DNA of 64,000 nucleotides from an uncultured Chloroflexales bacterium. GTDB taxonomy: Bacteria > Chloroflexota > Chloroflexia > Chloroflexales > Chloroflexaceae. Below are positions 48,720-50,253 of the stretch, one piece after another. Made by a program: the position numbers and the translations under genes. The notes under the pieces are model-generated. The model searched no databases. It was not told the origin of the DNA and worked only from the letters and a program-made list of their open reading frames with translations. The stretch's first letter is position 1, and every line of letters starts with the position of its first letter. The stretch is taken from positions 62,001 to 126,000 of the forward strand of contig CAKZSI010000008.1 of the NCBI GenBank assembly GCA_937918935.1. The letters are read 5' to 3'.

Positions 48720-48995
48720 TCATCCCTGGACCGAGCGACGCTTCGCGAGCAGGAAGGCCTCGGCGCCGCAGGCGCGGGCATAGGTGAGAGCCAGCTCGGC
48801 CAGGGGGCCATCCTCACCGTCGAGGTAGGCGCGCACCGCGGGAAGGAGGGCCAGCGCCGCTTCGGCGATGGCGGGCTTGAGGCGCACCCCGGGGCGCTGC
48901 GCAGCCAGCACGGCGCCGTAAAGCACCGCGCGGTCGGCTTCGCGGGCCAGATCGGCAGGGGTTGCCCCGGTGCGGCAGGGTGGTTCCTGGCTCAT
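48720..48995 (-). CDS. Small helical protein coupled to the CsoR/CstR-family gene
   Basis: This 91-residue protein overlaps the end of the upstream repressor gene as ATGA, so it is very likely translated. It is Ala/Leu/Arg-rich and helical (AREADRAVLYGAVLAAQRPG; AIAEAALALLPAVRAYLDG). It has two cysteines (Cys7 in EPPCRTG and one in YARACGAEA). There is no signal peptide, membrane helix or known motif that I recognise. Its place behind a probable thiol-sensing repressor and thioredoxin suggests a role in sulfur or metal stress, but this is only an inference from position. Confidence 0.6.
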   Translation of the reverse strand: MSQEPPCRTGATPADLAREADRAVLYGAVLAAQRPGVRLKPAIAEAALALLPAVRAYLDGEDGPLAELALTYARACGAEAFLLAKRRSVQG

Positions 48996-49282
48996 CGGGC
49001 CCCCTGGAACAACTCGATCAACTCGGCGATGACCTGATCACGGACAAGCTCATCGTCACCCAGACAATTCCGGGCGTAGCACTGCAGCACCTGGCTACTG
49101 ACGCTGGCCAGGGCCGATTTGATCGCCGCCACCTGAGTGACAATCTCGCGGCAATCACGACCCTCATCAACCATGCGCTGCACACCGCGCACCTGGCCTT
49201 CGATACGGCGCAGCCGTAACAGGATATCCTCCCGCCGCTCCGGCGAAAGGGTGCGCGCAGGGTTGGCTTGCGGCTCAAGCAT
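48992..49282 (-). CDS. CsoR/RcnR/CstR-family repressor, probably CstR-like
   Basis: The 96-residue all-helical protein has the family features RRIEGQVRGVQRMVDEGRDC and QVAAIKSALASV. Copper-sensing CsoR uses Cys, His, Cys, with the second and third ligands 25 and 29 residues after the first. Here Cys44 and Cys73 keep the 29-residue spacing, but the His position is Tyr69, preceded by an extra Cys68. Loss of the His with both cysteines kept is the pattern of persulfide-sensing CstR proteins. AAGGAGGT precedes the ATG at 49282. It lies downstream of trxA in the same direction, and a matching operator lies at the trxA promoter. Confidence 0.85.
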   Translation of the reverse strand: MLEPQANPARTLSPERREDILLRLRRIEGQVRGVQRMVDEGRDCREIVTQVAAIKSALASVSSQVLQCYARNCLGDDELVRDQVIAELIELFQGAR

Positions 49283-49389
49283 AGTGACCTCCTTGTCAAT
49301 TGCGGTGTGCAGCGACGGGCGCCAGCGGGTATTCGCCCGTGCCGCCGTTCTGAGCACCTATCTCAAAACCCTGGAGACGACGCAAGAGC

Positions 49390-49404
49390 AATACACACTG
49401 TATT
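49390..49404. promoter_or_regulatory. Inverted repeat ahead of the repressor gene
   Basis: AATACA-CAC-TGTATT is a perfect 6-3-6 inverted repeat between trxA and the CstR-like gene. It differs from the GTACCCC-type operator at trxA, so its role is open. Confidence 0.35.
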
Positions 49405-49408
49405 TTCT

Positions 49409-49427
49409 GGGAGGGCAAAGCCCTCCC
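49409..49427. repeat. Family B hairpin between trxA and the CstR-like gene
   Basis: GGGAGGGC and GCCCTCCC flank AAA. In a trxA read-through transcript this hairpin could reduce expression of the downstream repressor. Confidence 0.7.
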
Positions 49428-49538
49428 AGACCCTCCCCGCCGGCAGGTTTGTAGCACCATGGGACCTGATCTCGGCGAGGCTTCCAGCGGGGCCTCGACC
49501 CTCCGCGTCGCACCTACAGGGAACATCTCATTGGAGTA

Positions 49539-49865
49539 TTAGCTCAGCACTTTATCGAACACTTCGCGATACTGGGCCTCGGAGCGGGAACCGACCAGTC
49601 GCCCGACCTCCTGGCCGTTCTTAAAAATGATTAGCGTTGGGATGCCCTGAATGCCCAGATTACTGGCGTGCCGGATTTCTTCGTCGGTATTGACCTTGGC
49701 GATGGTCAGACGCCCTTCATACTCAGTAGCGAGCTTGTCGAGGATTGGCGCAATTGCCCGGCAGGGAGCGCACCACGGCGCCCAGAAATCAACAACCACC
49801 GGCTTGTCGGCCTGGAGCACCTTCTCCTCAAAATCAGCGTCTGTTACCACGATCGGCTTGGCCAT
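49539..49865 (-). CDS. trxA: Thioredoxin
   Basis: The 108-residue protein has the thioredoxin fold. The active site WAPWCAPC places Cys32 and Cys35 at the usual positions, with Ala in place of the usual Gly between them. The cis-proline is in GIPTLIIFKNGQEVG. It reduces disulfides and can also reduce persulfides. The ATG at 49865 with AGGAGGG ahead is chosen. The gene has one of the best promoters in the window, covered by a palindrome of CsoR/CstR operator type. The CstR-like repressor follows 256 bases downstream. Confidence 0.95.
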   Translation of the reverse strand: MAKPIVVTDADFEEKVLQADKPVVVDFWAPWCAPCRAIAPILDKLATEYEGRLTIAKVNTDEEIRHASNLGIQGIPTLIIFKNGQEVGRLVGSRSEAQYREVFDKVLS

Positions 49866-49922
49866 TCCGCTGCCCTCCTCTATGGACCACCCGCGGTCCG
49901 GAACGTGTGCATGCAAATCTTT

Positions 49923-49943
49923 GAGTACCCCCACGGGGTACTC
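49923..49943 (-). promoter_or_regulatory. CsoR/CstR-type operator at the trxA transcription start
   Basis: GAGTACCCC (49923-49931) and GGGGTACTC (49935-49943) are perfect inverted half-sites with a three-base spacer. They abut the -10 box and cover the predicted start site, so a bound repressor would block initiation. G/C tracts flanked by TA are the known operator type of this repressor family (from memory). No second copy was found in the window. Confidence 0.65.
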
Positions 49944-49971
49944 ATTATACCGCGCCAGGGCGGGCTGTCAA
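49944..49971 (-). promoter_or_regulatory. Consensus promoter of trxA
   Basis: On the minus strand a perfect TTGACA (49971-49966) and a perfect TATAAT (49949-49944) are 16 bases apart. The predicted leader to the ATG at 49865 is about 72 nt. Confidence 0.85.
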
Positions 49972-50155: not shown

Positions 50156-50253
50156 GCGGGAAACCCTGGTTTCCCCGCAGGTTGCGCGAAAGGTTTCCTG
50201 GGAGGGCTGTGCCCTCCCCAACCCTCTCTCCGGCGGGGAAACCCTGTTTCCCC
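50156..50253. repeat. Composite of family A-B-A hairpins
   Basis: A family A copy lies at 50156-50180. A family B copy, GGGAGGGC-TGT-GCCCTCCC, lies at 50200-50218. A second family A copy, GGGGAAA-CCCTG-TTTCCCC, lies at 50235-50253. Three hairpins in a row stand 35 bases before the UPF0173 start. Confidence 0.75.

Follow-up and report, generated by a model that had tools for sequence, protein, structure and literature searches.

The window, by which we mean the whole 64,000-nucleotide stretch that was analysed, carries on its minus strand a thioredoxin gene, trxA, followed by a gene for a CsoR-family repressor and a gene for a 91-aa protein (Table 1). The product of trxA scores above the TIGR01068 cut-off (120.5 bits vs 96.8, NCBIfam), which identifies it as a thioredoxin, and the csoR-like gene has an ATG start with AAGGAGGT upstream. 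The sequence bears out the layout proposed in a first-pass annotation of this DNA, namely a TTGACA-16-TATAAT promoter for trxA, a CsoR-family gene downstream in the same direction, and a 91-residue open reading frame joined to the latter by ATGA. The gap between trxA and csoR is 256 bp long in the window, as against about 20-110 bp in most other members of the host's family. Near-identical inverted repeats, TGGGAGGGC-N3-GCCCTCCCA, are found in the gaps around trxA, at 49408-49428 and 50199-50219; they likely represent a dispersed element, to which the gap between trxA and csoR owes its greater width. We infer that trxA and csoR are co-transcribed, with the gap lying within the operon transcript, and we go no further than that because these 256 bp carry a strong inverted repeat.

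Table 1. Features of the trxA-csoR locus, in window positions.
Feature	Position	Strand	Evidence
-35 of trxA, TTGACA	49966..49971	-	sequence
-10 of trxA, TATAAT, 16-bp spacer	49944..49949	-	sequence
Predicted operator palindrome, GAGTACCCC-N3-GGGGTACTC	49923..49943		sequence; conservation at trxA and trxB
Conserved core within the palindrome, TACCCC-N3-GGGGTA	49926-49940		conservation in relatives
trxA, thioredoxin, 108 aa, WCAPC active site	49539..49865	-	PF00085, E 8.1e-33; TIGR01068
trxA-csoR intergenic gap, inverted repeat at 49408-49428	49283..49538	-	sequence
CsoR-family repressor, 96 aa, Cys44/Cys68/Tyr69/Cys73	48992..49282	-	PF02583, E 2.9e-26
91-aa protein, ATGA overlap with csoR, Cys7 and Cys76 invariant	48720..48995	-	conservation; AlphaFold2

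The repressor belongs to the CsoR/RcnR (DUF156) family, with 92.1 bits for PF02583 against a curated cut-off of 22.8, and its gene is the single PF02583 gene found in the genome. Cys44, Cys68, Tyr69 and Cys73 are where the first-pass annotation had placed them, and alignment with the CsoR protein 4m1p pairs Tyr69 with the ligand His and Cys73 with the second Cys. Instead of the Cys-His-Cys copper ligands of CsoR, the protein thus has Cys44-Tyr69-Cys73, which is the residue pattern of CstR: two Cys at the CsoR positions and another residue for the His. All four residues are kept across the host's family, the ligand His being replaced by Tyr in all members seen. As for other sensors of the family, FrmR formaldehyde sensors need Pro2 at the N terminus; residue 2 is Leu here and the NF008464 score is 49 bits against a cut-off of 133, and we rejected that assignment. 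The RcnR nickel/cobalt sensor was likewise rejected, with 33 bits for NF011613 against a cut-off of 138.

The perfect palindrome that had been reported at trxA is indeed present, with two arms of nine nucleotides directly after the -10. Since it abuts the -10, the transcription start site should fall under it, according to our prediction. Its form, C and G runs flanked by TA at the putative target promoter, is that of CsoR/RcnR (DUF156) operators. The window has a single exact copy of the palindrome, and 100 shuffles gave none. In pattern searches of the 4.6-Mb genome, the inner core GTACCCC-N(0-8)-GGGGTAC has one occurrence, and the full palindrome with up to three mismatches has 15 sites vs 16 for a reversed control; as such loose matches do not exceed background, the only distinctive occurrence of the full palindrome is the one at trxA.

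The arrangement is conserved in relatives, which were drawn from 301 Chloroflexota genomes. Every host-family best match of the repressor that we fetched sits just 3' of a thioredoxin gene, and the trxA-csoR order is kept across the host's family and also in two relatives that belong to another one. At one locus (L021), csoR is preceded by two tandem thioredoxin genes. In relatives too, the palindrome comes after a -35/-10 pair, and in most of them the core TACCCC-N3-GGGGTA follows the -10. We scored candidate operators by the number of matches among the 12 fixed positions of this core. At least 11 of the 12 are matched at trxA in 20 of 25 host-family loci, two of which come from one genome (L034, L148), and dinucleotide shuffles would yield 0.04; the same holds for 13 of 15 additional trxA-csoR loci, almost all of them in other families, where shuffles would yield 0.02. 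These counts describe a footprint rather than a probability, because related genomes are not independent. Absence of the palindrome from trxA in relatives that keep the repressor, an outcome sought as evidence against the first-pass annotation, is not what we found. In Firmicutes and some Chloroflexota, the genes are in csoR-trxA order or divergent, and an operator often precedes csoR.

A second candidate target is trxB. A scan of the host's family revealed perfect core sites upstream of the thioredoxin reductase gene in two genomes. When trxB genes, which are unlinked to trxA, were collected across the family with TIGR01292, their upstream regions had a site with at least 11 matches in 19 of 30 genomes, compared with 0.03 in shuffles; about a third of the trxB promoters have no site at that threshold. 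The host genome itself carries ATACCCGCAGGGGGTACC, with one mismatch, at G000:C25:23141, some 130 bp ahead of the FAD-binding motif of trxB, and in the host genus a second, weaker site lies behind the trxB -10. As the host genome has seven one-mismatch sites vs a background of five, the case for its own trxB site rests on conservation at the trxB genes of relatives. Candidate sites with promoter context in this genome are those at trxA and trxB. The five other one-mismatch sites appear to lie inside genes or at background, and a wider regulon was accordingly discarded. The usual targets of CstR are the genes for rhodanese, persulfide dioxygenase (PDO), SQR and the sulfite exporter TauE; we saw none of these next to the repressor gene, nor at any one-mismatch site in the host genome. 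The predicted regulon is the thioredoxin system, trxA and trxB. Another conserved motif resembling a palindrome, TAATCTAGATTACAGAC, comes immediately after the operator in many trxB promoters (L173-L175, L178, L180, L183, L188, L191, L194) and is perhaps the site of a second regulator.

We estimate with a probability of roughly 0.7 that this CsoR-family repressor, devoid of a copper site, controls the thioredoxin system as a cysteine switch, acting through the trxA/trxB operator. The conserved operator, the predicted regulon, the loss of the copper ligand and the conserved cysteines are in favour of this reading, and they lend support to the first-pass proposal of a His-less, CstR-like repressor with an operator on trxA. 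In the circuit that we infer, with its binding, chemistry, exact signal, autoregulation and feedback, the reduced repressor would bind TACCCC-N3-GGGGTA just behind the trxA -10 and near the trxB promoter and thereby block transcription. Upon thiol stress, most likely caused by sulfane sulfur in the form of persulfide or polysulfide, with disulfide or oxidant stress as a close alternative, Cys44 would be modified and would form a link with Cys68 or Cys73 in an adjacent subunit. The repressor would then leave the DNA, with induction of trxB and of trxA-csoR, the latter joined in some genera by the 91-aa gene. The thioredoxin system would remove the persulfides or disulfides and probably re-reduce the repressor, closing the loop. 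Such feedback is suggested by SqrR, whose polysulfide link is reduced by thioredoxin (PMC10044876). Overall, the findings speak for cysteine chemistry rather than copper as the mode of sensing; persulfide is the leading candidate signal, but they do not tell it apart from stress caused by disulfides or oxidants.

The alternative that survives best keeps the cysteine switch and changes its signal: disulfide or peroxide stress would create an inter-subunit disulfide between Cys44 and Cys68 or Cys73, leading to the induction of trxA and trxB. We regard this as possible, though we hold it only tentatively. It would account for a predicted regulon that consists of the general disulfide-reducing pair and includes none of the usual CstR targets. 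In a repressor tree built with FastTree, whose support is moderate, the host-family clade (0.61) is grouped at 0.77 with a Tyr/Phe/Val-type clade linked to OsmC genes, which we named from sequence reading; the OsmC family is known for thiol peroxidases. An OsmC-like gene follows a His-less CsoR gene at L029, L037, L101, L106, L213 and L222, and at L106 trxA follows as well. There is precedent as well. The CsoR-like TTHA1953 of Thermus thermophilus represses a thioredoxin gene, and oxidation of its cysteines by Cu(II) or H2O2 lowers its affinity for DNA, while NaHS has no effect (PMC10318464). In Nostoc, thioredoxin is under redox-dependent repression by the ArsR-family RexT (PMC8960804). On the other hand, characterized His-less, two-Cys CsoR-like proteins answer polysulfide, as exemplified by ScCsoR of Streptomyces, which polysulfide releases from DNA (PMC7533328). 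YrkD, whose target cluster includes a thioredoxin-like gene, is likewise on the side of persulfide (PMC9918477). Furthermore, at L026, on the minus strand of that locus, the gene of a distant Cys-Tyr-Cys homologue has next to it, on its 3' side, one for a metallo-beta-lactamase/rhodanese protein that, by eye, reads as a persulfide dioxygenase. The lifestyle of the host is also relevant: its genome harbours two type II reaction-centre genes (Photo_RC, G000:C63:5886-7582), and the bacterium, a member of the Chloroflexus group, is therefore probably an anoxygenic phototroph that may live with sulfide.

The first-pass annotation went further and made the 91-aa protein a functional accessory of a CstR-type persulfide sensor for trxA. 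The residue pattern and the operator fit a sensor of that type, and in all nine host-family genomes that have the 91-aa gene it follows csoR, with Cys7 and Cys76 invariant. Nevertheless, this reading appears unlikely. The protein is absent from 32 of 41 host-family genomes, many of which have the full trxA-csoR-operator unit, and when co-occurrence was surveyed, most host-family genomes with trxA-csoR turned out to be without it. Elsewhere in the order, outside the host's family, its gene has unrelated neighbours: it adjoins a PPK2-like gene or is flanked by clpP and a 2-oxoacid oxidoreductase-like gene, as named from sequence reading. Given this absence and these neighbours, a dedicated accessory role was rejected as a general rule. 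The 91-aa protein is a conserved family, with no dedicated partnership with the CsoR-family repressor. The family spans the order, occurs in 28 of 158 genomes of the class and has no Pfam model (L301-L316); searches of Pfam and NCBIfam found no family for the window protein. AlphaFold2 predicts four helices with a mean pLDDT of 92.7. Foldseek gave no fold match with an E value below 3, and profile searches yielded no solved relative. A Taz2 domain was considered and rejected, the best VIA-align Z score being 5.0 for what is a common helical arrangement.

That a copper-responsive CsoR induces thioredoxin against copper-driven thiol damage is very improbable. The window repressor shares its fold family and operator style with CsoR copper repressors, and the host genome has no second CsoR, but the window repressor differs from them by its Tyr in place of the copper-site His, by the lack of copper genes and by an operator unlike that of its relatives' copper paralogue. 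In members of the host's family, a separate Cys-His-Cys CsoR is encoded beside copZ-copA and has a longer, different operator, e.g. TATACCCCTCCCCCCAGGGGAGGGGTATAG. In several relatives, a long operator of the copper CsoR such as ACCCCCTCCCCCGGGGGAGGGGGT lies just behind a TATACT -10 (L152, L155-L157, L264, L267). We surveyed the neighbours of about 200 homologues, scoring copper linkage within about 2.2 kb. None of the 45 Cys-Tyr-Cys genes is beside copper genes, 28 of them being beside trx and 6 beside OsmC, compared with copZ or copA adjoining 58 of 114 Cys-His-Cys genes. The copper-linked homologues (n=58) have the His in all cases and Cys68 in two; the trxA-linked ones (n=40) have Cys44 in all cases, Cys68 in 31 and the copper His in 9. 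Residues, neighbour genes and the separate copper paralogue together led us to set copper sensing aside. Seven trxA-csoR repressors of other families do retain Cys-His-Cys, a point in favour of copper that also indicates that the circuit needs no loss of the copper site. As for the idea that the palindrome serves another regulator or a transcript structure rather than the CsoR-family repressor, it has next to nothing to recommend it, given that the palindrome has the form typical of the family (TAC, C-run, G-run, GTA), tracks csoR-linked trxA across families, recurs at the unlinked trxB and shares its gene cluster with the only CsoR found in the genome.

Among the trxA-linked genes of other families, six have lost Cys73 and possess Cys68. 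These Cys73-less repressors group separately from the host's family in the FastTree phylogeny, in a second trxA-linked clade with a support of 0.95. The separation of the two clades suggests two origins of trxA linkage and Cys68, the support being moderate.

Precedents exist for a thioredoxin-type gene under the control of a CsoR-family protein. CstR and CstR-like proteins, such as Staphylococcus aureus CstR, Bacillus licheniformis YrkD and ScCsoR, belong like the window repressor to the CsoR/DUF156 family, have two Cys at the CsoR positions with the ligand His replaced, and use a TACC...GGTA palindrome near the promoter; the YrkD cluster includes a gene for a thioredoxin-like protein, YdfQ (PMC9918477, PMC7533328). 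The window repressor differs from them by having Tyr in place of the His, a position occupied by Asn in the pneumococcal protein of 7mq1, by its extra Cys68, and by its predicted regulon of trxA and trxB in place of rhodanese, PDO, SQR and TauE. TTHA1953 is similar as a CsoR-like protein with two Cys whose oxidation weakens DNA binding and which represses a thioredoxin gene (SoxW), but its operator has no C/G runs, its regulon is that of Sox sulfur oxidation and its targets are far from its own gene (PMC10318464). RexT of Nostoc sp. PCC 7120 is likewise a small repressor that comes from a metal-sensor family and now acts as a redox switch on a thioredoxin gene, with the differences that it has an ArsR-SmtB fold, forms a vicinal disulfide and responds to H2O2 (PMC8960804). 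In Escherichia coli, sulfane sulfur induces, through OxyR, the thioredoxin-type genes trxC and grxA, whose products remove sulfane sulfur; OxyR, however, is a LysR-family activator, and no CsoR-family repressor is involved (PMC6831875). In the open-licence literature, we found no published report of the trxA/trxB circuit proposed here, and the literature searched held no account of how the thioredoxin system is regulated in Chloroflexus-group anoxygenic phototrophs.

We lean slightly towards the view that these repressors form a distinct CsoR-family class of thiol switches for the thioredoxin system (trxA and trxB) in Chloroflexota. At least two CsoR lineages would each have gained a Cys one residue before the old copper His, which would then have been free to change. 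In the same bacterial family, a copper CsoR would operate beside them with a different, longer operator, and one fold would thus serve two insulated circuits. The presence of two operator types in one bacterial family suggests how paralogous repressors remain insulated from each other. The shared operator of trxA and trxB, together with the natural variation of the residues, with Cys44 constant, Cys68 or Cys73 as its partner and the His variable, makes it possible to test how a metal sensor may become a thiol sensor.
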